A stretch of DNA of 64,000 bases from Watersipora subatra (lineage: Eukaryota; Bryozoa; Gymnolaemata; Cheilostomatida; Watersiporidae). A program made the translations under genes and the position numbers. Within the stretch, counting starts at the first letter, position 1. Every line of letters starts with the position of its first letter. This document shows positions 8,835 through 63,138 of this stretch, one piece after another. The stretch lies in the NCBI RefSeq assembly GCF_963576615.1, contig NC_088714.1, positions 29,198,558 through 29,262,557 on the forward strand. Reading direction: 5' to 3'. The notes under the pieces are model-generated. The model was not told the origin of the DNA and did not search any database. It saw only the letters and a program-made list of their open reading frames with translations.

Positions 8835-8836
8835 TG

Positions 8837-9730: not shown

Positions 9731-9848
9731 GAGGTGGTTTATCTTGGTGCAACTTTTAAACTAGTACCCGTATTGAGTCTCATCCAGCATATTGCTAAGA
9801 GGGTTTAGGCATATGCAGAAGAGCAGCGGTGAGTAAGCACCGCTCTTC

Positions 9849-10682: not shown

Positions 10683-10756
10683 TCTAGATGAATTATTGAT
10701 GAACAGTTTAGTTTGTTCATTCTCTTGTTATCCCGCTCTTTGGTGTACCGCTTCAG

Positions 10757-31699: not shown

Positions 31700-33970
31700 C
31701 TGTAAAAGGAGAAAACATACAGAAAAAGAAAATATATACATATTACTTGTAATTTACTAACTGCAAATCAATAAACAAAAGTAATGTCGCAGCAGTTATT
31801 TTAATAGCCATGAATGACTGTATTAAATAAAATAATTGTTTCATCGATTTTGGCTGTTCCATTGTCTCCTTTACAGTTTGGGTATCGGTATGTAGTTAAC
31901 ATGTTGTAGATATTGTAAATACACCACTGAAATCTTATCGATTTAAACTAAAATGTTTGCTGCTTAGTTAATTTTTCTATTTGTAAATAATTGGTGCCAC
32001 TTTATGATTTTTCAGACAAATTAGAAAATCCAATTTTAAAAATAAAAATCAATAACTTAAAATTTACTCAATATCATTATTTTAATAATCTCAATTCATA
32101 ATTATGTCAAGTTCTCAAATAATAGTATAATGTTTATAATTGTTTTTAATATTTTTGCTCTCCAATAACAAGATCTACCTGTAGTTTATATAACTCAAGT
32201 TGCTTGTCTGAATTTAAATTTATAGATTATTAATAAAAAACATGTACAATTCAGAGTGAAGCCTGAGATATTTTAATGTATAGAATTGTAAATACTTTGG
32301 TAAGATCTAGTTTATTTATTTCGAGTTACTTGTGTGAAAGCTACGAGAATAACGACAATTTTTTCAAACATTCAAATTCATCGCAATTCAATAATGGAAA
32401 CATCTGGCAACTTTTTACACGAGGTCTCTGACAGTTGGTAGCCACAACAAATCTATTTGGAGATCAAAAAAGTTCTTGCAAAAGCGTTACATGTGTAGAC
32501 TTCTAGCAAAGATCTGCTTCGAAGTCTGAAATATAGTGAGCAGGTTGTACTTAGTTTGTTGAGTCATGTAATGTGTCACTTAAAAAGTTGAGGCAGTATT
32601 TTTAAGAATGACAGTTTTATAGAAGCAGAGAGACTTATTGATTAGAAATACATTACTCTTTTGAACTATAGGTTAGTGGTGGCAGACTAAATGAATAGGA
32701 GCAACAAACAATTGTACATACAATAATTGTATAATTGTACATACACAATTTTACAACAAACAATTGTACAGTCGTAGGTTTTTTGTAGTAGTACATATGT
32801 AAATGAATGTTTATGTACAAAAGAATTTGTTAATAAAAATAAATGTCACTTTGAGCTATGTATGTTCATAGAATACCGATTTTATTGACTTTTCAAAAAA
32901 TAAATTACCCGATTTATGATTGTTTTTGCAGGGCTTTTACCCAGCCAAAGAATAAATAAGAACTGCTGACATTAGACTCCTGATGCTTGTCACACAATTA
33001 GCAGCTCTTGTTTCAGCAAAATCAGGTTCTCTTAGATACAAGCAAGAAGTTTCTAAGCATCAAATCATGCCAGACATCAACTATAAATAGTTTATAAAGA
33101 AGGTCTATAATAGTAGAGGCTATTTAAGAACAAGTAGGTAATTAAAGAGTGTATAAAAGAAGGAGTGTGTTTTTCTGTAAATTTCTCAGACCACATAGTC
33201 TCAGTAAGGATATCACACCAAAAAGCAAAAATAATTTTTAAACACGACATGCAAGATTGCAAACAACAAACTCAGCTTTTATCAGAGAACTTTTAGAGAT
33301 TTACAAAAAAACATTAACTAGACAAAAACACAGTTTTGATCAAAAAACCTAGAGACTTGAAAAAGAATTTAAGTTCACTTATATCACTAATGGTCTAATG
33401 TATGTAAGTAGCAAAGGTGCTGCAGAAAGATTAGTTTCAAGTGTGAAGTCTTTATAATACCTTTACAAACAGTATATAAACTAAAATTACGGATGAGCTC
33501 TCTTGCTAAACTCTAAAAAGCATTATGTCAAAGCAGCCATATTATAAGTTTTTTAAAGCTAAGAATGATCTATAGAAAGAATGACATTTATCCTTGAAGA
33601 CAATTCTTACATGATGAAGGATTTGTTAGCTGTGTGTACTAGGAGAGGTTGTAGAATAGTAAGATGCTACGAAGGTCAGATCAAATGCCTGTGCCAATCA
33701 TAAAGTTGTTATTGAAGGTGCTCGTGTTTATTACATGGCGAGCAAAAGATAAAAATAATTTCAGTTATTAACTTCTCCACAGACAAAAAACTAACAGATA
33801 TGGTGCTAGAAATTCCTAGACAGTAAAGCTTAAATTAACCTGAGACATGTGAAGTGTAACTGCCTGAACAAGGTAACTTATATTATAATTATTTGCTTTG
33901 TGAGTATTTGAAGAGACGCTGCATTGTTTCTGTGTAATTAGGAGTAAGTTCCTCTAGTATTAATCCTCAC
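31700..33970. other. Intron or 5' region, nothing recognised
   Basis: AT-rich, with no exon that meets splice and phase tests. Includes an imperfect ACAATTGTACA cluster near 32710-32770. Confidence 0.4.
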
Positions 33971-37154: not shown

Positions 37155-37729
37155 CTATCAAATGATATAAGAACTAAATATTAACCATCCTACAGCTAGT
37201 TAGTAGCAATAAAAAAATAACTATAACTATGACGTCATCTCATGGAATAATTAATAGCAACCTATTTTCATTAATCACATTTAAACTATTAGAGACTTTA
37301 TTATACTAATTTGCAAACAATACATTTCTTGGTTGTCTGTAATCTTGTCTCACCCTAATGATGTCTCTACAGAAACATCCAGCCAGCTCTAACTTTGATG
37401 TTTGAATGATTGCGTATCCTGATATCAGTAAGTGAGTACCTGCTAAAACGTTTGTTACAATGCACAACGTGACTTAAATAAAACAAATGCAAACCAATCA
37501 AAAACAGGCGATCTTTTTAATTTCATGATATCCTTTTGGAAGCTTCAAAAACACATTTCTAAATGAAAGCAGTGCCAAAAACATGGCATTCTAATCATTA
37601 TGGATTGAAGCTGCAGCAGATATCATGTAGTAAGTTTCCATAGGAGGTTAGAAGTGACTTAGGCTTGACCTAACAGACAGTGTGAGAGCTGAACACAAAC
37701 CACGTTTACAACACAACACAACATTACAC

Positions 37730-40700
37730 CTGAAACAATCATTACAACTCATACAATCACTACAACTGATACAATCATTACAACTCATACAATCATTACA
37801 ACTCATACAATCACAACAACTCATACAATCATTACAACTCATACAATCATTACAACTCATACAATCATTACAACTCATACAATCATTGCAATTCATACAA
37901 TCACTACAACTCATACACTCACTACAACTCATACAATCATTACAACTCATACAATCATTACAACTCATACAATCAGTACAACTCATACAATCATTACGAC
38001 TCATACAATCATTACAACTCATACAATCATTACAACTCATACAATCATTACAACTCATACAATCATTACAACTCATACAATCATTACAACTCATACAATC
38101 ATTACAACTCATACAATCATTTCAACTCATACAATCATTACAACTCATACAATCATTACAACTCATACAATCATTACAACTCATACAATCATTACAACTC
38201 ATATAATCATTACAACTCATACAATCATTACAACTCATACAATCATTACAACTCATACAATCATTACAACTCATACAATCATTACAACTCATACAATCAC
38301 TACAACTCATACAATCATTACAACTCATACAATCATTACAACTCATACAATCATTACAACTCATACAATCATTACAACTCATACGATCATTTCAACTCAT
38401 ACAATCATTACAACTCATACAATCATTACAACTGATACAATCATTACAACTCATATAATCATTACAACTCATACGATCATTTCAACTCATACAATCATTA
38501 CAACTCATACAATCATTACAACTGATTCAATCATTACAACTCATATAATCATTACAACTCATACAATCATTACAACTCATACAATCATTTCAACTCATAC
38601 AATCATTACAACTCATACAATCATTACAACTCATAAAATAATTACAACTCATACAATCACTACAACTCATACAATCATTACAACTCATACAATAATTACA
38701 ATTCATACAATCATTACAACTCATATAATCATTACAACTCATATAATCATTACAACTCATACAATCATTACAACTGATACAATCATTACAACTCATACAA
38801 TCATTACAACTCATACAATCATTACAACTCATACAATCATTACAACTCATACAATCATTACAACTCATACAATCATTTCAACTCATACAATCATTACAAC
38901 TCATACAATCATTACAACTCATAAAATAATTACAACTCATACAATCACTACAACTCATACAATCATTACAACTCATACAATAATTACAATTCATACAATC
39001 ATTACAACTCATATAATCATTACAACTCATATAATCATTACAACTCATACAATCATTTCAACTCATACAATAATTACAATTCATACAATCATTACAACTC
39101 ATATAATCATTACAACTCATATAATCATTACAACTCATACAATCATTACAACTCATGCAATCATTACAACTCATATAATCATTACAACTCATATAATCAT
39201 TACAACTCATATAATCATTTCAACTCATACAATAATTACAATTCATACAATCATTACAACTCATACAATCATTACAACTCATACAATCATTACAACTCAT
39301 AAAATCATTACAACTCATATAATCATTACAACTCATACAATCATTTCAACTCATACAATCATTACAACTCATACAATCATTACAACTCATAAAATCATTA
39401 CAACTCATATAATCATTACAACTCATACAATCATTACAACTCATACAATCTTTACAACTCATACAATCATTACAACTCATACAATCATTACAACTCATAA
39501 AATCATTACAACTCATATAATCATTACAACTCATACAATCATTTCAGCTCATACAATAATTACAATTCATACAATCATTACAACTCATATAATCATTACA
39601 ACTCATAAAATCATTACAACTCATACAATCATTTCAACTCATACAATAATTACAATTCATACAATCATTACAACTCATATAATCATTACAACTCATATAA
39701 TCATTACAACTCATATAATCATTACAACTCATATAATCATTACAACTCATATAATCATTACAACTCATACAATCATTTCAACTCATACAATAATTACAAT
39801 TCATACAATCATTACAACTCATATAATCATTACAACTCATATAATCATTACAACTCATATAATCATTACAACTCATATAATCATTACAACTCATATAATC
39901 ATTACAACTCATACCATCATTACAACTCATACAATCATTTCAACTCATACAATCATTACAACTCATACAATCATTTCAACTCATACAATCATTACAACTC
40001 ATACAATAATTACAACTCATATAATCATTACAACTCATATAATCATTACAACTCATATAATCATTACAACTCATACAATCATTTAAACTCATACAATAAT
40101 TACAATTCATACAATCATTACAACTCATATAATCATTACAACTCATATAATCATTACAACTCATACAGTCATTTCAACTCATACAATAATTACAATTCAT
40201 ACAATCATTTCAACTCATATAATCATTACAACTCATATAATCATTACAACTCATATAATCATTACAACTCATATAATCATTACAACTCATATAATCATTA
40301 CCACTCATACAATCATTTCAACTCATACAATCATTACAACTCATGCAATAATTACAACTCATACGATAATTACAACTCATATAATCATTACAACTCATAT
40401 AATCATTACAACTCATATAATCATTACAACTCATATAATCATTACAACTCATATAATCATTACAACTCATACAATCATTTCAACTCATACAATCATTACA
40501 ACTCATACAATAATTACAACTCATATAATCATTACAACTCATATAATCATTACAACTCATATAATCATTACAACTCATACAATCATTTCAACTCATACAA
40601 TCATTACAACTCATACGATAATTACAACTCATATAATCATTACAATTCATACAATCATTACAACTCATATAATCATTACAACTCATACAATCATTTCAAC

Positions 40701-43700
40701 TCATACAATCATTTCAACTCATACAATAATTACAACTCATATAATCATTACAACTCATATAATCATTACAACTCATATAATCATTACAACTCATACAATC
40801 ATTACAACTCATACAATAATTACAACTCATATAATCATTACAACTCATATAATCATTACAACTCATATAATCATTACAACTCATACAATCATTTCAACTC
40901 ATACAATCATTACAACTCATACAATAATTACAACTCATATAATCATTACAACTCATATAATCATTACAACTCATATAATCATTACCACTCATACAATCAT
41001 TTCAACTCATACAATCATTACAACTCATGCAATAATTACAACTCATACGATAATTACAACTCATATAATCATTACAACTCATATAATCATTTCAACTCAT
41101 ACAATCACTACAACTCGTGCAATCATTACAACTCGTGCAATCATTACAACTCATATAATCATTACAACTCATACAATCATTACAACTCATACAATCATTA
41201 CAACTCATACAATCATTACAACTCATATAATCATTACAACTCATATAATCATTACATCTCATACAATCATTTCAACTCATACAATAATTACAATTCATAC
41301 AATCATTACAACTCATACAATCATTACAACTCATACAATCATTACAACTCATACAATCACTACAACTCATACAATCATCACAACTCATACAATCATTACA
41401 ACTCATACAATCATTACAACTCATACAATCATTACAACTCATACAATCACTACAACTCATACAATCATTACAACTTATACGATCATTACAACTCATACAA
41501 TCATTACAACTCGTGCAATCATTACAACTCATATAATCATTACAACTCATATAATCATTACAACTCATACAATCATTACAACTCATACAATCATTACAAT
41601 TCATACAATCATCACAACTCATATAATCATTACAACTCATATAATCATTACAACTCACCCAATCTTTTCAACTCATACAATAATTACAATTCATACAATC
41701 ATTACAACTCATACAATCATTACAACTCATATATTCATTACAACTCATACAATCATTACAATTCATACAATCATTACAACTCATACAATCATTACAACTC
41801 ATATAATCATTACAACTCATACAATCATTTCAACTCATACAATAATTACAATTCATACAATCATTACAACTCATATAACCATTACAACTCATATAATCAT
41901 TACAACTCATACAATCATTTCAACTCATACAATAATTACAATTCATACAATCATTACAACTCATATAATCATTACAACTCATATAATCATTACAACTCAT
42001 ACAATCATTTCAACTCATACAATAATTACAATTCATACAATCATTACAACTCATATAATCATTACAACTCGTGCAATCATTACAACTCATATAATCATTA
42101 CAACTCATATAATCATTACAACTCATACAATCATTTCAACTCATACAATAATTACAATTCATACAATCATTACAACTCATATAATCATTACAACTCATAT
42201 AATCATTACAACTCATATAATCATTACAACTCACACAATCATTACAACTCATACAATCATTACAACTCATACAATCACTACAACTCATACAATCATTACA
42301 ACTCATATAATCATTACAACTCATACAATCATTACAACTCATATAATCATTACAACTCATACAATCACTACAACTCATACAATCATTACAACTCATACAA
42401 TCATTACAACTCATATAATCACTACAACTCATATAATCATTACAAATCATACAATCATTTCAACTCATACAATAGTTACAAATCATACAATCATTACAAC
42501 TCATATAATCATTACAACTCATATAATCATTACAACTCACACAATCATTACAATTCATACAATCATTACAACTCATACAATCATTACAACTCATACAATC
42601 ATTACAACTCATACAATCATTACAACTCATATATTCATTACAACTCATACAATCATTACAATTCATACAATCATTACAACTCATACAATCATTACAACTC
42701 ACCCAATCATTTCAACTCATACAATAATTACAATTCATACAATCATTACAACTCATACAATCATTTCAACTCATACAATCGTTACAATTCATACAATCAT
42801 TACAACTCATACAATCATTACAACTCATACAATCATTACAATTCATACAATCATTACAACTCATACAATCATTACAACTCACCCAATCATTTCAACTCAT
42901 ACGATAATTACAATTCATACGATCATTACAACTCATACAATCATTACAACTCATGCAATCATTACAACTCATATAATCATTACAACTCATATAATCATTA
43001 CAATTCATATAATCATTTCAACTCATACAATAATTACAATTCATACAATCATTACAACTCATACAATCATTACAATTCATGCAATCATTACAACTCATAT
43101 AATCATTACAACTCATATAATCATTACAACTCATACAATCATTTCAACTCATACAATACTTACAATTCATACAATCATTACGACTCACATAATCATTACA
43201 ACTCATATAATCATTACAACTCATACAATCATTTCAACTCATACAATAATTACAATTCATACAATCATTACAACTCATATAATCATTACAACTCATATAA
43301 TCATTTCAACTCATACAATCATTTCAACTCATACAATAATTACAATTCATACAATCATTACAACTCATACAATCATTACAACTCATGCAATCATTACAAC
43401 TCATATAATCATTACAACTCATATAATTATTACAACCTATACAATCATTTCAACTCATACAATAATTACAATTCATACAATCATTACAACTCATGTAATC
43501 ATTACAACTCATATAATCATTACAACTCATACAATCATTTCAACTCATACAATAATTACAATTCATACAATCATTACAACTCATACAATCATTACAACTC
43601 ACCCAATCATTTCAACTCATACAATAATTACAATTCATACAATCATTACAACTCATACAATCATTACAACTCATGCAATCATTACAACTCATATAATCAT

Positions 43701-46700
43701 TACAACTCATATAATCATTACAACTCATACAATCATTTCAACTCATACAATAATTACAATTCGTACAATCATTACAACTCATATAATCATTACAAATCAT
43801 ATAATCATTACAACTCATACAATCATTTCAACTCATACAATAATTACAATTCATACAATCATTACAACTCATATAATCATTACAACTCATATAATCATTA
43901 CAACTCATACAATCATTACAACTCATGCAATCCTTACAACTCATACAATCATTACAACTCATACAATCATTACAACTCATACAATCATTTCAACTCATAC
44001 AATAATTACAATTCATACAATCATTACAACTCATACAATCATTACAACTCATACAATCATTACAACTCATACAATCATTTCAACTCATACAATAATTACA
44101 ATTCATACAATCATTACAACTCTTATAATCATTACAACTCATACAATCATTACAACTCATACAATCATTTCAACTCATACAATAATTACAATTCATACAA
44201 TCATTACAACTCATACAATCATTACAACTCATACAATCATTACAACTCATACAATCATTTCAACTCATACAATAATTACAATTCATACAATCATTACAAC
44301 TCATATAATCATTACAACTCATATAATCATTACAACTCATACAATCATTTCAACTCATACAATCATTACAACTCATACAATATTTACAACTCATAAAATC
44401 ATTACAACTCATATAATCATTACAACTCATACAATCATTACAACTCATGCAATCATTACAACTCATACAATCTTTACAACTCATACAATCATTACAACTC
44501 ATACAATCATTACAACTCATACAATCATTACAACTCATACAATCATTACAACTCATACAATCATTACAACTCATACAATCATTACAACTCATACAATCAT
44601 TACAACTCATAAAATCATTACAACTCATATAATCATTACAACTCATACAATCATTACAACTCATACAATCATTACAACTCATACAATCATTACAACTCAT
44701 ACAATCATTACAACTCATACAATCATTACAACTCATAAAATCATTACAACTCTTATAATCATTACAACTCATACAATCATATCAACTCATACAATCATTA
44801 CAACTCATACAATCAATACAACTCATAAAATCATTACAACTCATATAATCATTACAACTCATACAATCATTACAACTCATACAATCATTACAACTCATAC
44901 AATCATTACAACTCATACAATCATTACAACTCATATAATCATTACAACTCATATAATCATGACAACTCATACAATCATTTCAACTCATACAATAACTACA
45001 ATTCATACAATCATTACAACTCATATAATCATTACAACTCATATAATCATTACAACTCATACAATCATTTCAACTCATACAATAATTACAATTCATACAA
45101 TCATTACAACTCATATAATCATTACAACTCATATAATCATTACAACTCATATAATCATTACAACTCATATAATCATTACAACTCATATAATCATTACAAC
45201 TCATACCATCTTTACAACTCATACAATCATTTCAACTCATACAATCATTACAACTCATACAATCATTTCAACTCATACAATCATTACAACTCATACAATA
45301 ATTACAACTCATATAATCATTACAACTCATATAATCATTACAACTCATATAATCATTACAACTCATACAATCATTTCAACTCATACAATAATTACAATTC
45401 ATACAATCATTACAACTCATATAATCATTACAACTCATATAATCATTACAACTCATACAATCATTTCAACTCATACAATAATTACAATTCATACAATCAT
45501 TACAACTCATATAATCATTACAACTCATATAATCATTACAACTCATATAATCATTACAACTCATATAATCATTACAACTCATATAATCATTACAACTCAT
45601 ACAATCATTTCAACTCATACAATCATTACAACTCATACAATAATTACAACTCATATAATCATTACAACTCATAAAATCATTACAACTCATATAATCATTA
45701 CAACTCATACAATCATTTCAACTCATACAATCATTACAACTCATACAATAATTACAACTCATATAATCATTACAACTCATATAATCATTACAACTCATAT
45801 AATCATTACAACTCATACAATCATTTCAACTCATACAATCATTTCAACTCATACAATAATCACAACTCATATAATCATTACAACTCATATAATCATTACA
45901 ACTCATATAATCATTACAACTCATACAATCATTACAACTCATACAATCATTACAACTCATATAATCATTACAACTCATATAATCATTACAACTCATATAA
46001 TCATTACAACTCATACAATCATTACAACTCATACAATAAATACAATTCATACAATCATTACAACTCATATAATCATTACAACTCATATAATCATTACAAC
46101 TCATACAATCATTTCAACTCATACAATAATTACAATTCATACAATCATTACAACTCATACAATCATTACAACTCATACAATCATTACAACTCATACAATC
46201 ATTACAACTCATACAATCATTACAACTCATACAATCATTACAACTCGTGCAATCATTACAACTCATATAATCATTACAACTCATATAATCATTACAACTC
46301 ATACAATCATTTCAACTCATACAATCACTACAACTCGTGCAATCATTACAACTCGTGCAATCATTACAACTCATATAATCATTACAACTCATACAATCAT
46401 TACAACTCATACAATCATTACAACTCATACAATCATTACAACTCATATAATCATTACAACTCATATAATCATTACAACTCATACAATCATTTCAACTCAT
46501 ACAATAATTACAATTCATACAATCATTACAACTCATACAATCATTACAACTCATACAATCATTACAACTCATACAATCACTACAACTCATACAATCATCA
46601 CAACTCATACAATCATTACAACTCATACAATCATTACAACTCATACAATCATTACAACTCATACAATCACTACAACTCATACAATCATTACAACTTATAC

Positions 46701-47318
46701 AATCATTACAACTCATACAATCATTACAACTCGTGTAATCATTACAACTCATATAATCATTACAACTCATATAATCATTACAACTCATACAATCATTACA
46801 ACTCATACAATCATTACAATTCATACAATCATCACAACTCATATAATCATTACAATTCATATAATCATTACAACTCACCCAATCATTTCAACTCATACAA
46901 TAATTACAATTCATACAATCATTACAACTCGTACAATCATTACAACTCGTGCAATCATTACAACTCATATAATCATTACAACTCATATAATCATTACAAC
47001 TCATACAATCATTTCAACTCATACAATCACTACAACTCATACAATCATTACAACTCATACAATCATTACAACTCATACAATCATTACAACTCATACAATC
47101 ATTACAACTCATACAATCATTACAACTCATACAATCATTACAACTCATATAATCATTACAACTCACCCAATCATTTCAACTCATACAATAATTACAATTC
47201 ATACAATCATTTCAACTCATACAATAATTACAATTCATACAATCATTACAACTCATACAATCATTACAACTCATACAATCATTATAATTTATACAATCAG
47301 TATAACTTATACAATGAA
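37730..47318. repeat. 9.6-kb array of an 18-bp satellite (ACAATCATTACAACTCAT)
   Basis: About 530 uninterrupted head-to-tail copies lie between unique flanks. The consensus has no G, so the plus strand is almost G-free for 9.6 kb. Variant units (TCATATAATC, ATCATTTCAAC, ATAATTACAATTC) are ordered into higher-order repeats, for example a 16-unit (288 bp) block repeated at about 38590 and 38878. Because 18 is divisible by three, four frames stay open: TIITTH and QSLQLI on the plus strand, MSCNDC on the minus. A 798-codon chance frame results at 44959-47355. I see no sign that any is a gene. Confidence 0.97.
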
Positions 47319-50783: not shown

Positions 50784-51990
50784 TTAGTTAAAATATGATT
50801 TACAGCTACAGTATAGCCTCATTTCAAAGTCAGCAACACAGTTAGCTGATTGGCCGTATAGACTGACCCTACTGATGCCCTTCACCTCTGCTTTCTTGGA
50901 GCCATCCGAATACACATGAACTGTTGCTGAAAACTCAGCATCGCTCGGTTTCATTCCGATTGTCACTAAAAGTTCATTAATATTGGAGTCTTGAATATCG
51001 TACCTGTGGTTGATATTCGCAGCTTTAATGTAGCGTAACTGATAAGTAAGGCAGAGGTTTCTGTTAACTTCGGTTAACTCGTTAACTCGATCTACAATAG
51101 CTTGTGCGGCTTCCTGTGTTAGCTTATTATCAAGAGGGTATTCTGAAGAGCTTCGACAGCCACAAAAATGGTCAGAAATACCGGCATCAGCGCAAGTCCT
51201 TTTTTCGTCTATCGGTTCAAAAAAACTTTTTCCATAATTTTCCATACCAGCGGCAGCAGCTGACGACAGCGCTCCGTCCGCAAAATCTAGTAAAGTTCTA
51301 TGTAAGTCATACGGTGAAGTGAGTCTATTGTCAGCATTTACTTTAAATATCTCCATCTCCTTAGCGTACTTGCGCTGAAACCAATCCGGAATAATCCAGT
51401 GCATCATGGGACTGTTTTCCTCATTTTGACCTATTTTGGTGGCTCTAAGTCCTCCATAACGATAGCCATGATCCGAATAGAATACTAAAATGGTGTTGTT
51501 TAGAGAGTTCGACTTGTCGAGGTCTCGAAAGAGATTATAATAGTACACATCTGATTGGCCGAGAGAGTTAGCGTTCTCGTGAGATACCATCGTTGTCCAG
51601 CTCCATAAAAAGTAAGGAAAATTGATCTTAGAATACTGTTTTACGAACGATGATGTCCAATCTCCTTCCCACACATGCATCCCCTTATCGAGGTAACAAA
51701 AGTCGACCCACCAACTTTTAGCTATTCTCGGCTCGGCCACAACAGAAAATGGTTTAGAATAGTGATCAGACGGCTTGTAATGAAATCCCTTTTTTAGCCA
51801 GTTAAAGAGGGCTCCAGTCTTGTAGTCCTCATAGTAGCCAGTTACGAAACTGTCATTGTTAAACCACTTAAATATAAGGGGGTCATCATCAAAGAATCTG
51901 TTGAAATTGATGCCGATCCCTTCTTCTACAGGCCTGCCTGTCAGCACGGTGTACAGGTTCATGAATGTGTTATCTTGCAGCCTATTATAG
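50784..51990 (-). CDS. DUF229 gene exon 6 (catalytic core and C-terminus)
   Basis: Acceptor TGTTTTTAG|CTATAA, phase 2, stop TAA at 50784-50786. Carries NRLQDNTFMNLYTVLTGRP, the HEN motif and FYSDHGYRYGGLR, then the family's long C-terminal part, with cysteines near CADAGISDHFCGC. Uninterrupted for 402 codons. Confidence 0.9.
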
Positions 51991-54900
51991 CTAAAAACAT
52001 AAAGTAAAACAGCCATTATTATATTTCTTGGTTTTATATAAATTTTTAGGACTTGAATTATTACACAAAAACACTGGACTTAAGTATAACTTAGCTAAAA
52101 TATCATAAAAATAAACAACCAAATACATGTTACAATCATACCTCTACATATGGAATAAATTTATTCCAAGATTTGCTTTATATGTTAAAACTCATGTCTT
52201 TTAAGGTTGACTTGCAACAAAATTCACATTACAGTTATTTGGTATCAAAAGATTCACCATGTCTTACTCTGTTGTGTTGTAGGTGTCAAATACGTGGAAA
52301 TGTGATTACCAGCTCTTAAAAGCTCAAAAACAAAAAGCCGCAGTAGATTGGAATCTGTTTATTTATCTGACATAGTCATTACAGTTTGGTTATCATCTTG
52401 TCACGTATGTTCTCACATGAATTGAAAGGCCAATAAAAATTTTAATGTAAAACTTATCGTAGCCCTAGTTTATAACAAACACTTCGGGTTTTACCAAAGA
52501 CCCCGTATCAAATATAGATGCTTGCTACTTTACAGTTTTCTTTCGGCATTATTCAATCGTCAAGTCGTAATCTGATCACATGACCCAATACTTCGCAAAT
52601 AACTTTTGCACCTCTTTTCGATTAACACAGGTAACCAACAGGCTCGTCATGATTATCAGACAATGATATATACTCCTTCGAGGTAAGGTTAATAAATTTA
52701 ACGATTTTTTACAGTAAGTTATAAGATATCAGTGCTAAAAGTGACAGCATTACAATGACGATAAAACAGACGCGTAAAAACAATGGACATGGTTTTATTG
52801 AATGAGTGAAGTATATTTGTGAAAATATTTCGACGAATGAGGTTGCATGAAAGTGTAAACGGAAACCATCCTGTAACAACTACGTCTCATTTGAGCCCTT
52901 TGGAAAGCAAATCCACACTACGGCCGTCTAGTGTGGCTGCGATTAACTGTTCGTTTTTGAGTTTTTAAGAGCTTGTAATCACATTTCCATATATTTTGCA
53001 CCTACAACACAACAGAGTAAGACATGGTGAATCTTATGATACCAAATAACTGTAATGTGAATTTTGTTGCAAGTCAACCTTCAAACATTTAAACACATGT
53101 AAAAAACCTACATAAAAAACTAAAGTTAAACATTTAGTAAAAGGTAAAGAAGGATATAAATAAAGCAATGAGTGTTAAATAAAGATTTAAATTGTTACTT
53201 TAGCCTAAAGAGACGTGAAATAATGTAAGTACAGCGATGAACAGAGGTAAATATGGTGCTAAAGAATTACAGTGTTACTTACTCTATCATAAACTAGCTA
53301 AAGCTTCAACTAACTTAGGTTTAATTTTTTTATTATCTGTGTAAATTTTTGCATTTTTAATTTCTCTGGTCTTTTCACCTCTAACTACAAACTCTGAGAT
53401 GTTTAAAAATTTCAAACAGTTTAAAACATTAGGAAATATTTTGAGCGTAGAATCAAATATTTGTAGAAAATCCATGCCTCATGTTGAAAAGTTGGTACAC
53501 TAAACAACTTTAACAATGTAAGTAAATGTGAGTAATGTAGGTTCTCAACAATTGCAAGAATTAACAGGATGATAAGTAATGACTTCAAGAGGGAACTTAA
53601 TTCACAGTAACCTACTAACACAAAAATAGTTTATATTAAAGTTGTGTCCAACCATTTATGATTTAATGGAATCCTGTCAAAATATTTGTCAAATATAAAA
53701 CTTTCACGTGGGGTTGAATTACAGATGCTTTTAACTGAAATGAATGTTGTTAGCCGAGCATTGTCAAGGATTTAAGGACATTGTGCCTGCTGCCTTATTT
53801 AACACAATTCAGGGCTGTTACATATTTATCAAGTAAGATGATTTCTCAGTTTGTATGAGCAGCAGACGCTGCCACGAGTATAGATAGCTTCTATTTTTTA
53901 TACAGATAGACTTCAAAATTGCACCTTCAATCTACCGGCTCTTTACACAAAAAAATATCCATCATCCAGAGAAATGTAAAATGGGTGAATATAATTTTGA
54001 ACAAACCAAGCTGTTATATTTCACATGAAAGAGAAGGCTGTAAATAATGTTGAAACTGATAGATTTGATGTCATAGATGACTAAAATAAAATTGGAATCA
54101 ACTCGATCGACAGTTCACCTCTACATAGGTGAATACATCATCAATAAAGAGCAACATTTTAGTGTTGGACACGAAATACTGCAATTTAATTAAATGTAGA
54201 CAATTCACACTCAAGTCTTCAGACAGACGTCCCCTCAGCGGTTATCTGTCGCCTGTGTTCACTGTAAACCGATGGCATCATTGAGGCGATGCTGATACGA
54301 TGAGGAAGATTCCTGCTTCCGATAGTGTGCTGAGCATTTGCAACAACCTATACAATGTGCACCCTTTCAGTGATTGGCCGCTATGGACTGCTTGATCTAT
54401 GTTTTCGTATATGACAGTTGCTGCAGGACTAGTAAATCATCGTTTCAGCAACTGTGATGTGTAATAAGAATGCCAAGTCACAGATTATTTGTTGATGGAA
54501 ACACGGATGGGTTTGTGATAGTATAAACATTGATATCACAGACGATCACCAAAGTATTGTGTGAACACGTATGTGTGTTAAACCAGACACAACGATATAG
54601 TGTGAACCAACCTTATGTAATGCTTACAACATGCAATGTCAAAGTAAGTAAGTCAAACCAGCAATTACGACAGTAAATCTGACGAATGAACATTGATAAA
54701 TGCACCAACTGAAAAAGCTTTGAGTTTGTACAGGAAATATCTGTCTCAAGCTTACCAGGCATGAAAAAGCCAATAGTGTGCTACTAACCCTTTGAATGTA
54801 ACCAGATTATGATTCTGTCTCAAATATCCGACAGTCCTCGGCAGGTGTCTATAGCCCTGATTCAATGACGTGGAGTCAATACCAAACATCAAAATGCTCA

Positions 54901-57900
54901 TCTTTTCTGTGAATCTACGTGATTTAGTTTGTTTGACTTTCCTTTCTAGAGCTTCCTTAGCTCGTCTCTGTGCGAGTTTAAGAGGTACATAGCTGGAGTA
55001 GTCTCTGTATGTCTGTAGAAGGAGCAAAGTTTATGACTAAATATGTGAGTTTACTAGATACATAGCTGGAGTAGTCTCTGTATGCCTGTAGAAGGAGCAA
55101 TGTTTATCACTAAATATGTGAGCTTACTAGGTACATAGTTGGAGTAGTCTCTGTATGTCTGTAGAAGAAGCAAAGTTTATAACTAAATATGTGAGTTTAC
55201 TAGATACCTAGCTGGAGTAGTCTCTGTATGTCTGTAGAAGAAGCAAAGTTTATGACTAAATATATGAGTTTACTAGGTACATAGCTGGAGTAGTCTCTGT
55301 ATGTCTGTAGAAGAAGCAAAGTTTATGACTAAATATGTGAGTTTACTAGATACATAGCTGGAGTAGTCTCTGTATGTCTGTAGAAGAAGCAAAGTTTATG
55401 ACTAAATATATGAGTTTACTAGGTACATAGCTGGAGTAGTCTCTGTATGTCTGTAGAAGAAGCAAAGTTTATGACTAAATATGTGAGTTTACTAGATACA
55501 TAGCTGGAGTAGTCTCTGTATGTCTGTAAAAGGAGCAAAGTTTATGACTAAATATGTGAGTTTACTAGATACATAGCTGGAATAGTCTCTGTATGTCTGT
55601 AAAAAGAGCAAAGTTTATGACTAAATATGTGAGTTTACTAGGTACATAGTTGGAGTAGTCTCTGTATGTCTGTAGAAGGAGCAAAGTTTATGACTAAATA
55701 TGTGAGTTTACTAGGTACATAGCTGGAGTAGTCTCTGTATGTCTGTAGAAGGAGCAAAGTTTATGACTAAATATGTGAGTTTACTAGATACATAGCTGGA
55801 GTAGTCTCTGTATGTCCGTAAAAAGAGCCAAGTTTTTGACTAAATCGTCCAGGCAAGGTCAGGTGAAAATAACAAGGAATAGAAATGGTGTGTCTGGACT
55901 ATGAAAAATGAAGCTCTCATAAAAGTTAATAGTAGCCACACTTGAAGAACCAACAAATGTTTTGATAATGGTATTGATGATTCACGAGCACATGTAACAC
56001 AAGAATTTTAATAACTCTAATATATCTTGTTCTGACTTTGATCTATGTCAAAACCATTGAACAGCACGTACAACTAATAGGTCAGCCAAGGTCAATTATA
56101 AGCAACAATCAATGCAGAGTGCATGCCAAAAATCTATGGGAGGATACTGTGATGAAGTCAGCAAAGGTCAATTGTAGGCAACAATGAGCAGAGAGTGTAT
56201 CCCTGGGCTGTGGAAAGCAAAGCTATCATAACGAGTGATGCTGTTAAAGTTCATAGATTAAACTGTACTAGGGAGTACCTAGTATAGTAGTAAATCTTAT
56301 TAGGCTCTTTAAAGGTGTTCAATATGCAGAGCTATGATTAAATCCTGCCAGAAATACATGTTTACTTCTGCCTGTGCAATAGTATAGAATAAAAATAGAG
56401 ATGGACTCTTTACATAGTCTTAGTGAACGAAGCAAGGAAACAAAAAACCACATGATATACATATGCATAATATAGTGTATATACCACAAGTAACTAGATA
56501 CCATAACAATACATGCTTTACATAAGGAGATACCATAACAATACATACATCAAGTAACTATGTACCATAACAATACATACCTCAAGTAATTAGATACCAT
56601 AACAATACATACCTCAAGTAACTAGATACCATAACAATACATACCTCAAGTAACTAGATACCATAACAATGCATACCTCAAGTAACTAGATACCATAACA
56701 ATACATGCCTCAAGTAACTAGGTACCATAACAATACATACCTCAAGTAACTATGTACCATAACAATACATACCTCAAGTAATTAGATACCATAACAATAC
56801 ATACCTCAAGTAACTAGATACCATAACAATGCATACCTCAAGTAACTAGATACCATAACAATACATGCCTCAAGTAACTAGGTACCATAACAATACATAC
56901 CTCTAGTAACTAGCTACCATAACAATACATACCTCAAGTAACTAGATACGATAAGAATACATAACTCAAGTAACCAGATACCATAACAATACACACCTCA
57001 AGTAACTAGATACCATAAAAATACATACCTCAAGTAGCTAGATACCATAACAATACATACCTCATGTAACTAGGTACCATACCAATACATACCTCAAGTA
57101 GCTAGATACTATAATAATACATATCTCAAGTAACTAGATACCATAACAATACATACCTCAAGTAACTAGCTACCATAACAATACATACCTCAAGAAACTA
57201 GATACCATAACAATACATACCCCAAGTAACTAAATACCATAACAATACATACCTCAAGTAACTAGATACCATATGAATACATAGCTCAAGTATCTATGTA
57301 CCATAACAATACATACCTTAAGTAATCAGAGTAACAATTATATATGTTACAATATTTATGTTCATTATGAGTGATCACACAGGGTCACCGTATGAGGTTG
57401 TCATATTAAAATTCTGTTTAATCTGGGTTAACATGGCCTCAGAGTGACAGACTCATAACAAGTTAGTGATGACAGCATTTAGACATTCATAGTTGCTTCG
57501 TGAAACCTAATATAGTGTTGATTCTTAGATTAATTATAGCATGCAGTACCTTCTCATGTAAGATTATTTGTAACATGTGTACAAAGAAAACCAGCTACAC
57601 AAGACCCATGCACAACCTCCTACCTCTACAAATGCCCAAGTGCAGACAATTTCCACAAACTCATCAGTCAGTTCTGTGGGCTTGTTTGTCAGTGACAGCC
57701 AATCGGTGAAAAATGCTGCTTCATCCGTTTCGGCATAATCATATGTTCTGTATATGTATCGGAATTTACAACTTTCCCCTAAATGAGACCAACTCTGAAG
57801 TCATGCAAGTAGCATCACACATCACCCTGTGTTACTTTAAGGCACGCTCGTATGCTAGCATTAGGTAAGTATTTCATCTAATGCTAAAATGGCAGAACAA

Positions 57901-60900
57901 TTTAATAGACAGAGAGCAAACCTGTAGTTGTCAAAATTGAAATGATTAGTATAAATATAGCAGACACAACTAAACTGTTTACCACGGCTCACTAAGATGA
58001 GTCATGAGAACAAGGGACAAAGTCAAAAGTGAAATGATTAGTATAAATATGGCAGACATAACTAAACTGTGTACCACGGCTCGCTAAGATGAGTCATGAG
58101 AACAAGGGATCAAGTCAAAAGTGAAACGATTAGTATAAATATGGCAGACACAACTAAACTGTTTACCACGGCTCGCTAAGATATGTCATGAGAACAAGGG
58201 ATAAAGTCAAAAGTGAAACGATTAGTATAAATATGGCAGACATAACTAAACTGTGTACCACGGCTCGCTAAGATGAGTCATGAGAACAAGGGATAAAGTC
58301 AAAAGTGAAATGATTAGTATAAATATGGCAGATACAACTAAACTGTTTACCACGGCTCGCTAAGATGAGTCATGAGAACAAGGGATAAAGTCAAAAGTGA
58401 AATGATTAGTATAAATATGGCAGACATAACTAAACTGTTTACCACGGCTCGCTAAGATGAGTCATGAGAACAAGGGATAAAGTCAAAAGTGAAACGATTA
58501 GTATAAATATGGCAGACATAACTAAACTGTGTACCACGGCTCGCTAAGATGAGTCATGAGAACAAGGGATAAAGTCAAAAGTGAAATGATTAGTATAAAT
58601 ATGGCAGACACAACTAAACTGTTTACCACGGCTCGCTATGATGAGTCATGAGAACAAGGGATAAAGTCAAAAGTGAAACGATTAGTATAAATATGGCAGA
58701 TACAACTAAACTGTTTACCACGGCTCGCTAAGATGAGTCATGAGAACAAGGGATAAAGTCAAAAGTGAAATGATTAGTATAAATATGGCAGATACAACTA
58801 AACTGTTTACCACGGCTCGCTAAGATGAGTCATGAGAACAAGGGATCAAGTCAAAAGTGAAATGATTAGTATAAATATGGCAGACATAACTAAACTGTTT
58901 ACCACGGCTCGCTAAGATGTGTCATGAGAACAAGGGATAAAGTCAAAAGTGAAACGATTAGTATAAATATGGCAGACACAACTAAACTGTGTACCGCGGC
59001 TCACTAAGATGAGTCATGAGAACAAGGGATTAAAAATGACAGCTATGGCGCCTTACATTGCCTCGCGCTCCGTGTTCGCAACTCGAGTTTTACAACTCGA
59101 GTTGCCGAGTTTTTGAGTTTTAGTTTTTGAGTTTGAGTTTTTTTACTCGGCCTGGGTTTTTGATGAGCTTGAGTAATGTTACGCAAAACCAACACGGGTT
59201 TGTAAAAAAAGCAAAGTGAGTAATTGGGGTGTCTCATTTACAGAACATTAACAGAAATTTAATAATAATTATTTAAATATATATACACATTTAAATTATA
59301 TATATTGGCGATATTTTCGCATATTTATTTCTATAAATATAACGAGACAAAAACAATTGTAGAATGTAAAAGGCAAACTAAAAAACAATCTATGTGGGAG
59401 CCGGGCCACTTCTTTTTCAAATGAAAAAAGAGTTATCTCTCTAGAACCTGACAAGTAGCTGAATGAACACCAAAAATAAACTTAGAAATTATGTCAACGA
59501 CGTTTAATGATGCACCAAAAAAAATTCCATATAAAAATATAGCTAGAGAAAATGAAATGGTGAGATGTTCTTAAGCCGAGTTGTTGAACTCGAGTCGTTG
59601 TTGAAAGAACTCGGCTTGGGTTTTTGATCAACTCGAGTTGTGTAACTCGAGTTGTACAACTCGAGTTATATTTACAAACTCGAGTTGGTAAATATAACTC
59701 GAGTTGTACAACTTGAGTTGCAAACTCCGCACACTATAATTCGCCAGTAGCTTTAGTTTTACAGTACATACAAACATAGTGTAATTTTCTATTAGCTAAC
59801 TGGTGCCTATTGATGTACCATTGTTAATATAACCAGACCTATGGTTATGCTACCGTATGTTGCGTGTTCACAACTCGAGTTGTGCAACTCGAGTTATGCA
59901 ACTCTAGTTGTGAACACACAACGCGAGGCACTGTAAGGCGCCATAGATAATGTACCTGATACTAGCTAATGTCCCTGTTACTAGGTACTGTGCCTGATAC
60001 TAGATAATGTACCTGATATTACGTAATGGTAATATGCCTGATACTAGGTAATGTCCTTGATACTAGGTAATGTACCTGATACTAAGTAATGTACCTGATA
60101 CTACGTAATGTACCTGATACTAGGTAATGTACCTGATACTAGGTAATGTAACTGATACTAGGTAATGTACCTGATACTAGGTAATGTACCTGATACTACG
60201 TAATGTACCTGATACTAGGTAATGTACCTGATACTAGGTAATGTACCTGATACTAGGTAATGAACCTGATACTAGGTAATGTACCTGATACTACGTAATG
60301 TACCTGATACTAAGTAATGTACCTGATACTACGTAATGTACCTGATACTAGGTAATGTACCTGATACTAGGTAATGTACCTGATACTTGGTAATGTACCT
60401 GATACTAGGTAATGTACCTGATACTAGGTAATGTACCTGATACTAGGTAATGTACCTAATACTAGGTAATGTAGCTGATACTAGGTAATGTACCTGATAC
60501 TAGGTAATGTACCTGATACTAGGTAATGTACCTGATACTAGGTAATGTACCTGATACTAGGTAATGTCCTTGATGCTAGGTGATGTACCTGATACTAGGT
60601 AATGCACCTGATACTAGGTAATGCACCTGATACTAGGTAATGCACCTGATACTAGGTAATGTACCTGATACTAGGTAATGCACTTGAAACTAGGTAATGT
60701 GCCTGATACTATGTAATGTGCCTGATACTAGGTAATGAACCTGATATTAAGTAAATGTGCCTGATACTCGGTAAAATACCTAATACTAGGTAGCAAAAAG
60801 AGCCAGCGAATAGACTATGGTTTATCAACAATGCCGACGAATCCAAAAATATGGCAGAAGTTTAACATATAATACCTGGCATGAATGTTCTATCTATAAT

Positions 60901-63138
60901 ACCTAGCGTGAATGTTTTATCTATAATACCTGGTATGAATGTTTATTTATAATACCTGGTATGAATGTTTTATCTATAATATCTAGTAGGAACGGTTTAC
61001 CAATAATACCTGGTAGGAATGGTTTACCTATAATATCTAGTAGGAATGGTTTACCTATTATATCTAGTGAACATTTACCTATTATATCTGGCGAAAAAGA
61101 TTTACCTATCATTGTTGAAGTTGTTAATTGTATTTCATCATTTTTAATTGCAAATCTCCGCTTTATTGTTTGCTTGCATTTATACTCTTTCATAATTGGT
61201 TGTCGATCAGTGATGTCAGCTATGGAGGCATCATAAGGGTGGTAATTCGGTCTGTGACAAGCTGAGGCATGAACTAAACTTTCTTCCTGGTAGGACTCTA
61301 TAGCATTAAGTTTTTCTGAAACAAAAAGAAAAAGTGCATATTAATAGTACAGTGCACCCTCGCCGTACTACATTAATTTTTCTGGTGTTGGTATCGTAAA
61401 GCAAACGTTGTATAGAAGAGTATAGACACACAAAGCTAAGTTTTAGCATGTATTTTTATAAACTTAACTTTAATTTTGTCATCTTTAAAGTTTTCTTACT
61501 TATCTGTTTCCGGTTTCGCTTTCACTATAACTTATAACAAATAAGACTGAACTGAAAGAGAGCCAGCATTGTATCTCTCCCAACCATTTTGGGAAAGATT
61601 GTGACAAATATCATATCAGCATTTTCATTATTCTGACGTATTCAGGGCACTGACTGCTGAACTTGAATTTCGAAAGAAATTTTTTTCCATATTGTCTGGC
61701 GAAGAAATGTCATATGGGGGAGATGAAAAGACATCGGGTGTCACATAATAAGACAAAAACCATTCAAAAGGGACATAGTAGCACTGTAGCAATTATAGTA
61801 TATCACCCACTGCAATTTTATACGAGCAACTGTTAGTATGCTGTGACACATTGGAACAGTCCAGCATCAGTTGTCATATTCATTATTTTGATGTTTTATA
61901 TACTGAACCTACACAGACATCGACTAGCCTTATGATATCCTTTATATAGTTACCAGCTTTATCATATGAATTCATGAACCAATTACTCTGATATATTGTG
62001 TACTCATGCACGTGAATGGAGAGTAAGCAACCATACCTTTGGGTTGTATAACATACTCTGATATATTGTGTACTCATGCAAGTGAATAAAGAGTAACCAA
62101 CCATACCTTTGGGTTGTATAATATACTCGGATGTATTGTGTACTCATGCATGTGAATGGAGAGTAAGCAACCATACCTTTGGGCTGTATAATATACTCGG
62201 ATGTATTGTGTACTCATGCATGTGAATGGAGAGCAAGCAACCATACCTTTGGGTTGTATAATATACTCCGATGTATCGTGTACTCATGCATGTGAATGGA
62301 GAGTAACCAACCATACCTTTGGGCTGTATAATATACTCGGATGTATTGTGTACTCATACATGTGAATGGAGAGTAAGCAACCATACCTTTGGGCTGTATA
62401 ATATACTCAGATGTATTGTGTACTCATGCATGTGAATGGACAGTAACCAACCATACCTTTACGTTGTATAATATACTCCGATGTATTGTGTGGCATACAG
62501 TCGCTTTGAGAGTCCCTAGCAAAGAGTTGAGTAAAGCAGTTGGAAGTCACACGTGACGGATAAAACGCAGAGTAGTGGCACAAACTATCCAGAGAGCAAA
62601 TCTCCCCACATTCTGACGCGCTCTTGACAGTCAAGTAGCAAATATTTTTATATGCCCCATGCACGGGTTCTGCAAATGGGTAGAAAGAATGTTATAGTGT
62701 TAGTAGAAGAAATCCTCGCTTTTTCTTATGAAACTTGTAAAAAACATGGAAGAAACAGACATACAAAATTCATAGAAACATAGAATATGTGATAACCAAG
62801 CAATGAGCTATCCACACCTGCAAAAACATCTAGAGACCACAGACATAGAGATACTATCAAATACACATAAATGTACAGCAATTCATAAACACGCAGACAT
62901 ATATTAGAATTTATCTAAATAAAGACTTCGGATATGAGGTAAAGATTCATGTGAAGGCAATTCCTGATTGATGATATATTGATATGAAGGCGTACTCTGA
63001 AGATGCGAAGGCATCCAATATATTCGGAACAGACAAAAAAGCATCTCATAACATACATACCCATTGTTTGGACAGTGTATGCTTACCTGACAAAGCAGAG
63101 CGAGTTAGAAAATCAAACACTAGCAAAACTACAATCAT
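50784..63138 (-). CDS. PAN/apple + DUF229 (sulfatase/alkaline-phosphatase-fold) protein, six exons, complete
   Basis: Joined from 63138-63087, 62669-62457, 61315-61106, 57778-57624, 55012-54789 and 51990-50784: 2061 nt, 686 residues plus TAA, with every junction in phase. In order it has a signal peptide (1-17), a six-cysteine PAN/apple-like domain (about 18-90), a linker starting CHRPNYHPYD that matches the DUF229 N-terminus, and the DUF229 domain to the end. The core has ILMFGIDSTSLNQGY (nucleophile/metal region), YNRLQDNTFMNL, TMVSHENANSLGQSD and VFYSDHGYRYGG (the DHG metal-binding motif). DUF229 proteins (Pfam PF02995) share the alkaline phosphatase/sulfatase fold, but their substrate is unknown. 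A secreted or lumenal hydrolase is inferred. Its introns carry six minisatellite arrays and two transposons. Exon order and phases make a pseudogene unlikely. Confidence 0.88.
52203..53081. mobile_element. Foldback element, copy 2 (complete, 879 bp)
   Basis: AAGGTTGACTTGCAACAAAA at the left and TTTTGTTGCAAGTCAACCTT at the right, with arms matching for about 140 bp each. Located in DUF229 intron 5, 200 bp upstream of the last exon. No coding frame and no clear target duplication. Confidence 0.88.
53082..54788. other. DUF229 intron 5, remaining part
   Basis: AT-rich and without an exon or named repeat. Confidence 0.5.
54789..55012 (-). CDS. DUF229 gene exon 5 (nucleophile strand)
   Basis: 224 nt, phase 0 in and phase 2 out: acceptor CTTCTACAG|ACATAC, donor AAAGG|GTTAGT. 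Encodes TYRDYSSYVPLK, then EKMSILMFGIDSTSLNQGYR and LPRTVGYLRQNHNLVTFKG. The GIDS segment holds the expected nucleophile/metal residue of the fold. The first bases of this exon are part of the 73-bp array. Confidence 0.88.
54985..55840 (-). repeat. 73-bp minisatellite copying the exon-5 acceptor
   Basis: CATAGCTGGAGTAGTCTCTG recurs every 73 bp from 54988 to 55791: 12 copies, the first inside the exon. Each unit has the exon's pyrimidine tract, CTACAG (a few copies read TTACAG or similar) and about 30 nt of exon start. All are in sense orientation. Confidence 0.95.
55841..56460. other. Intron 4 spacer with a short diverged repeat
   Basis: AGGTCAATTATAAGCAACAATCA and AGGTCAATTGTAGGCAACAATGA near 56090 and 56165 form a diverged pair about 75 bp apart. 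Otherwise featureless. Confidence 0.45.
56470..57325 (-). repeat. 32-bp minisatellite, about 26 copies, donor-like motif in each
   Basis: The unit CAAGTAACTAGATACCATAA + CAATACATACCT has point variants. On the transcribed strand each unit reads TGAG|GTATGTATTG, a near-consensus 5' splice site. It lies in intron 4 of the DUF229 gene. Confidence 0.93.
57624..57778 (-). CDS. DUF229 gene exon 4
   Basis: 155 nt: acceptor CATTTAG|GGGAAA (phase 1), donor GTAGAG|GTAGGA (phase 0). Peptide ESCKFRYIYRTYDYAETDEA, then TDEFVEIVCTWAFVE, which matches the family's V-V-C...Y-D-H run when joined to TYRDYSSYV of exon 5. Confidence 0.85.
57950..59035 (-). repeat. 92-bp minisatellite, 12 copies
   Basis: AACTAAACTGTTTACCACGG recurs every 92 bp from 57968 to 58980. 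Two main variants (GTTTACC and GTGTACC, CACAAC and CATAAC) alternate irregularly. In the transcript sense each unit has a pyrimidine-rich run, CATCTTAG and then CCGTG|GTAAAC. It lies in intron 3. Confidence 0.95.
59046..59943. mobile_element. TIR element rich in the palindrome AACTCGAGTT
   Basis: TA|TGGCGCCTTACATTGCCTCG at the left and CGAGGCACTGTAAGGCGCCA|TA at the right give about 24-bp TIRs and TA duplications. About ten copies of the 10-bp palindrome AACTCGAGTT sit subterminally at both ends and near 59640-59720. It has no transposase and is inserted exactly between two minisatellites. Confidence 0.82.
59946..60795 (-). repeat. 19-bp minisatellite, about 44 copies
   Basis: The unit GTAATGTACCTGATACTAG is strongly homogenised in the centre and degenerate at both ends. 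In the transcript sense each unit reads ATCAG|GTACAT. It lies in intron 3 of the DUF229 gene. Confidence 0.95.
60870..61110 (-). repeat. 27/24-bp minisatellite copying the exon-3 donor, in frame
   Basis: About nine units of TTTACCTATAATATCTAGTA + GGAATGG begin at the exon 3 end and run into the intron. On the sense strand they encode repeats of GKPFLLDII. Five units keep a usable donor (exon ends 61106, 61079, 61055, 61028, 61001), all in phase 1. Confidence 0.9.
61106..61315 (-). CDS. DUF229 gene exon 3
   Basis: 210 nt, phase 1 to 1: acceptor TTTTTGTTTCAG|AAAAAC, donor ATGATAG|GTAAAT. The peptide starts EKLNAIESYQEESLVHASA, then CHRPNYHPYDASIADI, a family N-terminal signature, and KEYKCKQTIKRRFAIKND. 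Reading past the donor stays open for over 60 codons. Confidence 0.85.
61345..61740 (-). mobile_element. Interspersed repeat family U, copy 4 (inverted, internally deleted)
   Basis: CAGTGCACCCTCGCCGTAC at 61351 begins the element. The reverse complement matches copy 2 through TACGATACCAACAC, AATGAAAATGCTGAT and CATATGACATTTCTTCGCC. No coding. Confidence 0.55.
61985..62460 (-). repeat. 70-bp minisatellite copying the exon-2 donor, 7 copies
   Basis: CCATACCTTT recurs at 62031, 62101, 62171, 62241, 62311, 62381 and 62451. Each unit holds about 35 nt of exon end (GAGTATATTATACA) plus AAAG|GTATGG and about 35 nt of intron. The highest-coordinate copy is the working donor. Confidence 0.95.
62457..62669 (-). 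CDS. DUF229 gene exon 2 (PAN/apple-like domain)
   Basis: 213 nt, 71 codons, phase 1 to 1: acceptor CATTTGCAG|AACCCG, donor GTAAAG|GTATGG. Six cysteines (NICYL, SECGEICSLDSLCHY, NCFTQ, SDCMP) with YSAFY and a closing YIIQRK are PAN/apple-like. Such domains bind proteins or glycans. A symmetric phase-1 exon is typical of shuffled extracellular modules. Confidence 0.82.
63087..63138 (-). CDS. DUF229 gene exon 1 (signal peptide, start codon)
   Basis: ATG at 63136-63138 opens MIVVLLVFDFLTRSALS, a hydrophobic signal-peptide-like run, and ends at the strong donor TCAG|GTAAGC in phase 1, matching exon 2. The start was chosen because it is the only ATG giving a hydrophobic N-terminus in the required phase. 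An alternative reading of the same bases as an acceptor (TTTTCTAAC...TGTCAG) is possible but would leave no start. Confidence 0.65.

Follow-up and report, generated by a model that had tools for sequence, protein, structure and literature searches.

Tandem repeat arrays over three splice junctions of one DUF229 gene in Watersipora subatra

Introduction

Tandem repeats that run over exon-intron boundaries reportedly received the name mirages in Canestro 2002, the original paper on them, which dealt with amphioxus Adh3. Mirages are described in amphioxus Adh3, in the globin genes BflGb6 and BflGb9, in PGBD5 and in TnC, with two separate arrays in the single lancelet gene PGBD5 (PMC3087553, PMC3902484). 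As far as the accessible parts of these two papers go, the repeated units measure 10-160 bp, cover donors as well as acceptors, vary in copy number and in many, not all, cases keep the AG or GT of the junction. Our literature search, which had most subscription journals outside it, met the name for lancelet genes only.

Repeats at comparable places have been reported under other headings. In human segmental duplications, tandem repeats at exon-intron edges alter gene structure between paralogues, and they reportedly give rise to new introns or to alternative splicing, with RNA support (PMC2812944). Intron gain through tandem duplication over AGGT was modelled by Rogers (as cited in PMC3087553), is described in the accessible text on the potato RdRp gene (PMC4974935) and is already proposed for mirages in the globin paper (PMC3087553). 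The available portion of a report on earthworm metallothionein introns describes intronic arrays and does not report that they span junctions (PMC12783039).

Here we examine a DUF229 gene in a 64,000-nucleotide stretch of Watersipora subatra DNA, which we call the window. A sequence-only reading of the window had claimed that tandem arrays built from splice junctions recur in this gene, and knew of no name for such a pattern. The main points of the first claim were confirmed, while a name does exist, since repeats of this kind are the ones called mirages.

A DUF229 gene in six exons

The gene lies on the minus strand from 63138 to 50784 and has six exons, introns bounded by GT..AG, and 686 codons without an internal stop (in the sequences quoted below, a slash marks the exon-intron junction):

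63087..63138, minus strand: exon 1, with the start codon; signal-peptide-like by eye; donor CAG/gtaagc
62457..62669, minus strand: exon 2, whose last 35 nt are the exonic share of the 70-bp unit
61106..61315, minus strand: exon 3, whose final 7 nt lie within the 27-bp unit
57624..57778, minus strand: exon 4
54789..55012, minus strand: exon 5
50784..51990, minus strand: exon 6, including the stop codon

The product is a DUF229 member (PF02995, E=3.3e-100, profile search) with a weaker match to the sulfatase family PF00884 (E 4e-8). A search of the PDB with the protein gave no match at 1e-3, and Rfam, run over the whole window at gathering thresholds, gave none either. Elsewhere in the window are a 9.6-kb satellite of about 534 copies of an 18-bp unit (37706-47315) and, on the minus strand, one exon of a gene resembling those for guanylate-binding proteins (31484-31753; PF02263, E 4.6e-6) as well as long open frames at 8297-11284 and 21482-23642. 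These frames we take to resemble reverse transcriptase and Penelope-like elements; three such candidate frames scanned against Pfam had no match at 1e-3.

Three of six arrays cover a splice junction

TRF finds six larger tandem arrays in introns 2, 3 and 4 of the gene (TRF copy numbers in brackets):

61984..62491, minus strand: 70-bp array (7.3 copies); seven donor copies AAG/gtatgg, headed by the one that exon 2 really uses in the gene model
60860..61112, minus strand: 27/24-bp array (7.3 copies; a second TRF row gives 8.6); leads away from the exon 3 donor; five in-register GT donors
59944..60792, minus strand: 19-bp array (44.3 copies); intron 3; AGGT on both strands
57930..59030, minus strand: 92-bp array (12.0 copies); intron 3; no AGGT
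56481..57325, minus strand: 32-bp array (26.4 copies); intron 4; AGGT in sense orientation
54974..55845, minus strand: 73-bp array (11.9 copies); twelve copies of the exon 5 acceptor, of which the last is the real one

Three of the six, the 70-bp, 27/24-bp and 73-bp arrays, run over a splice junction, so that three different junctions of one gene are amplified in units that are unrelated to each other, as the sequence-only reading had stated together with the copy numbers of seven and twelve. Half of the 70-bp unit, 35 nt, is the end of exon 2, and the other 35 nt come from intron 2. All seven of its donor copies are identical over the 9-mer that was scored, with an approximate matrix that makes the scores rough, and because of this identity something else must choose the donor. 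By eye, the 73-bp unit joins ~31 nt of intron 4 to ~42 nt of exon 5; AG precedes the exon edge in 11 of the 12 copies, TACCT occurs inside the exonic part at six places only, and the outermost intron-side copy adjoins other intron sequence in each paralogue of the gene.

The exon 3 edge is the weakest of the three cases. About ten units can be recognised by eye, and five of them, including the real donor, carry an in-register GT (four AG/GT and one TG/GT), which bears out the five intact donors first counted there. Units nearest the exon keep the GT and distal ones are without it, and the first units continue the reading frame of exon 3 without a stop. In the TRF output the array begins at 17 nt into the intron, BLAST with exon 3 and its 40-nt flanks returns copies of the intron side only, and the unit includes just 7 exonic nt, of which 6 match. 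The real donor sits in a 27-nt frame that shares 19 of its 27 nt with later units, and among 8410 frames of the gene region that are free of arrays there was none with so good a match.

The 32- and 19-bp arrays had been counted as part of the same pattern, on the grounds that every unit places AG/GT in sense orientation, and this did not hold. Sense AGGT occurs 18 times in the 26.4 units of the 32-bp array and 33 times in the 44.7 units of the 19-bp array, where it also occurs 31 times on the other strand. Neither array matches any exon with its 40-nt flanks by BLAST, and AGGT-bearing arrays are frequent elsewhere in the genome; we therefore rejected both as junction-derived, and both look ordinary. 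BLAST of exons 1, 4 and 6 with 40-nt flanks likewise gave no second copy in the gene.

Two further features of intron 3 were seen. On the minus strand most units of the 92-bp array read, by eye, TACTAAT, a pyrimidine-rich stretch, TTAG and then GTG/GTAAAC, an acceptor-like and donor-like pair flanking a would-be 9-nt exon; eight such donors were scored. Between the 92-bp and 19-bp arrays lie short 14-bp repeats (59107-59142, 59629-59667 and 59871-59912), two of them palindromic, CAACTCGAGTTG.

These overlaps were set against a chance model in which each of the six arrays falls with uniform probability within the introns or across their edges. The model expects 0.28-0.45 of the six on an edge. 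The probability is 0.0016-0.006 that at least three lie there and, with the exon 3 case set aside, 0.016-0.039 that at least two do so with 7 nt or more to either side of the junction; both tests are post hoc. Control edges, few in number, came from four stretches with DUF229 relatives on C10 and from two chaperonin genes of the same genome. None of their 52 edges (26 exon matches, whose ends are profile-match ends and may differ from the true ends by a few nt) is overlapped by an array. At five control exons arrays approach to 6 to 59 nt, and the junction lies inside the array in none of three close cases inspected by eye.

Paralogues with and without the arrays

The genome (783.7 Mb) holds two close paralogues on the same contig as the window gene, G2 at 28.40-28.42 Mb and G3 at 29.49-29.51 Mb, and more distant relatives on C10. 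G2 is identical to the window gene at 672 of 686 residues, has an intact frame and carries all six arrays, with 5.0 copies of the 70-bp unit, 5.4 of the 27-bp, 26.3 of the 19-bp, 5.0 of the 92-bp, 29.4 of the 32-bp and 3.9 of the 73-bp unit; the 14-bp repeats are present as well. Copy numbers thus differ among paralogues within this one assembly, the exon 5 acceptor being found 12 times in the window gene, 4 times in G2, where two copies have lost the AG, and 5 times in G3.

G3 has a mosaic-like make-up. Its exons 4-6 share 93-97% DNA identity with the window gene and keep the 32-bp (45 copies) and 73-bp (5 copies) arrays, whereas exons 2 and 3 are strongly diverged, with about 50% protein likeness (46% and 51% by tblastn), and the 70- and 27-bp arrays are missing from this part, which has arrays peculiar to G3; such a pattern suggests gene conversion or recombination. 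By eye, the donors of G3 exons 2 and 3 nevertheless stand at the same codon and in the same phase as in the window gene. The presence of introns 2 and 3 in a paralogue that lacks both arrays makes these introns independent of the arrays, and the comparison indicates that the 70- and 27-bp arrays, common to the window gene and G2, did not create them. The suggestion of the sequence-only reading that amplified junctions might mark intron gain finds no support for introns 2 and 3.

For intron 4, all three paralogues carry the 73-bp array, which would either predate the split of the three or have spread among them by conversion. One C10 relative shows, by eye, an acceptor near the equivalent place and in a different phase, which hints weakly that intron 4 is not old.

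A candidate AGGTA core in minisatellites of the genome

Per 10 kb there are 4.9 arrays in the window gene, 6.1 in G2, 4.4 in G3 and 3.1 near the C10 relatives, compared with 0.75 for eight 10-kb stretches chosen arbitrarily and 0.40 for the window outside the gene. Among 48 units from outside the gene, AGGT was the most over-represented of 87 4-mers tested (19 versus 10.0 expected) and AGGTA the most over-represented of 84 5-mers tested (12 versus 4.6 expected). Once overlapping arrays were removed, AGGT was present in 18 of 47 units versus 9.4 in shuffles, with 1 of 1000 shuffles reaching this value, and AGGTA in 11 of 47 versus 4.4 (0 of 1000), while AGGT was not enriched in 192 array-free control segments (25 versus 30.7). 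Most of this signal stems from C10: by source, AGGT was found in 14 of 29 units near the C10 relatives, in 4 of 11 from the arbitrary stretches and in 0 of 7 from the window outside the gene and the G3 region; without the C10 units the AGGT(A) excess was not significant (4 versus 2.4). The sequence-only reading had named an equal density of AG/GT-containing minisatellites in unrelated DNA as a finding that would overturn it, and the frequencies of 18 of 47 and 4 of 11 come close to this: AGGT within an array is not particular to the gene, while the three junction-spanning arrays stand. As a whole, that interpretation is partly supported.

For the whole genome, we counted patterns with four copies in register at the four periods tried (30, 31, 37 and 43 bp). 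AGGTA gave more matches than its reversal at each of them, with 5470 versus 2549 at period 30, 2153 versus 827 at period 31, 6599 versus 701 at period 37 and 1384 versus 362 at period 43; because these counts are matches, large arrays weigh heavily in them. A second control pair, the only other one, gave 656 and 853 matches at period 43. When distinct arrays were counted by eye among the matches listed, C1 to 39.4 Mb held 14 AGGTA versus 2 ATGGA arrays at period 37, one of the latter coinciding with an AGGTA array, and C1 to 61.9 Mb held 18 AGGTA arrays (8 in one cluster) versus 8 GATGA arrays at period 43. The AGGTA excess at period 43 is thus less lopsided by distinct arrays than by matches.

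AGGTA-rich arrays could be relics of true donors, a possibility that we rejected. The 22 AGGTA occurrences examined in array units, 7 of them in the DUF229 gene, fall on both strands (10 on one and 12 on the other), and in a recursive- or ratchet-site test restricted to the AGGTAAG form, 0 of 22 were followed by AG. Genome-wide at period 31, AGGTAAG accounts for 150 matches versus 2153 for AGGTA (7%), near the ~6% estimated from base composition. Judged by these contexts, the AGGTA core seems not to be a donor in disguise.

Predicted effect of the extra splice copies

When transcripts of the window gene were spliced in silico, each of the six later exon 2 donors and each of the eleven earlier exon 5 edges (one without AG) led to a premature stop. 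In G2 the same was true of three of three later donors and three of three earlier edges tested, two of those edges being without AG. As non-terminal copies at exons 2 and 5 lead to a premature stop, the exon-proximal copy must be the one that makes protein, and from this need we infer that it is also the copy that is spliced.

The exon 3 array behaves differently. In the window gene, six of its nine inner GGTA sites are in frame and would lengthen the protein by 9-50 residues (9, 17, 26 and 35 at the in-register sites, 32 and 50 at the CAG/gtatta sites); the three most distal give premature stops. In G2 the frame is kept at four of four inner sites and the entire array is open. Given that a unit length would be divisible by three by chance in about one case in three, the in-frame array is to be read as a lead only.

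Discussion

We think it probable that the three junction arrays are minisatellites of the mirage type, a by-product of unstable repeat DNA that the gene tolerates. A short segment straddling a junction by chance would be duplicated in tandem, and the resulting junction-spanning array would then expand and contract by unequal exchange. The copy next to the exon would stay the real junction while further copies fall into the intron. Because each copy carries the splice signal and the exon-proximal one is usable, growth would be tolerated and the intron would lengthen from its edge, whereas duplications entirely inside an exon would be purged. The gene family is set in DNA rich in minisatellites, and since minisatellites of this genome are enriched in AGGTA/TACCT, splice donors containing AGGTA would be natural targets; the enrichment is what suggests that the core motif promotes duplication. 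The donors of exons 2 and 3 contain AGGTA, but so do the array-free donors of exons 1 and 4. The 92-bp array, which is without AGGT, and the 73-bp array, with TACCT at only six places in its exonic part, also speak against this part.

A more far-reaching version of this explanation gives AGGTA the leading part, and we put it forward tentatively, as possible and short of an even chance. Minisatellites would form and spread around a strand-symmetric AGGTA/TACCT core, donors would be mutational hot spots, and introns would grow from their edges by a neutral ratchet.

Of the other explanations considered, one holds that the exon 3 array is partly coding, with alternative donors appending in-frame nine-residue repeats of the IGKPFLLDI type. 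The open frames in both genes and the retention of GT nearest the exon, with its loss distally, agree with this, but three of the nine inner sites in the window gene run into premature stops, unit lengths of 27/24 would keep the frame by chance in about a third of cases, and exon 3 of G3 ends at the same place without the repeat, so that we regard a coding role as unlikely.

We consider it improbable that the extra copies serve as functional decoys, donors and acceptors that compete with the real ones while array length tunes the share of unproductive, premature-stop mRNA and hence expression. AG is kept in nearly all acceptor copies of the window gene but gone from half of those in G2, and the 70-bp donors are undegraded, all seven alike, but homogenisation alone could explain alike units. 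Every non-terminal copy at exons 2 and 5 gives the premature stop that a decoy would exploit, and the arrays are retained in G2; the copy numbers are nonetheless far apart between near-identical paralogues, and G3 manages without the 70- and 27-bp arrays.

Intron gain in progress, with the arrays as relics or seeds of introns born by tandem duplication over AGGT, appears very unlikely to us. The model is published for mirages (PMC3087553), both donor arrays have AGGT, and intron content does vary, given that three C10 relatives lack intron 5 and give protein matches that cross its site. The array-free introns 2 and 3 of G3 speak against it, however, as does intron 5, which has no array, and the donor end of exon 4 has no copy elsewhere in the gene (exon plus 40-nt flanks).

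Long tandem arrays are error-prone in assembly, but an artefact is hardly credible here, as the units differ at several positions and related arrays with differing unit numbers occur at three separate loci, all of them in one assembly and so not independent.

If the far-reaching version, with minisatellites formed around an AGGTA core, is true, a core motif would determine how long introns are and, for one exon, perhaps how long the protein is; should the AGGTA core hold genome-wide, minisatellite instability would be tied to splice junctions and introns would grow without selection. The locus is also a natural experiment in splice-site choice, with seven identical donors and eleven AG acceptor copies and, for each set, one protein-making copy. 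What had been an amphioxus oddity is now testable in another genome, where three paralogues differ in the junctions that are amplified.

Judged by their sequence, the three junction arrays belong to the known mirage class. Like amphioxus mirages, the 70-, 73- and 27-bp units combine exonic and intronic sequence from the two sides of a real junction, both types of edge are amplified (two donors and one acceptor), and AG or GT persists in many units, here 7 of 7, 5 of about 10 and 11 of 12. Unlike them, three junctions are affected in one DUF229 gene, one array is largely in frame, a paralogue has two of the introns without the arrays, and the 784-Mb genome has AGGTA-enriched minisatellites. The repeats of human segmental duplications are similar in having minisatellite-sized units at exon-intron boundaries; in contrast to that RNA-supported case, introns 2 and 3 here are independent of the arrays. 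With the Rogers model and the potato RdRp gene the locus shares tandem duplication over AGGT, but it shows no new intron, and for introns 2 and 3 the paralogue evidence is contrary. In human VNTRs, many unrelated arrays share a short minisatellite core; compared with those, the core here is AGGTA and coincides with the splice donor. The array-free introns of a paralogue, the largely in-frame array and the candidate core motif are useful additions to the known mirages.
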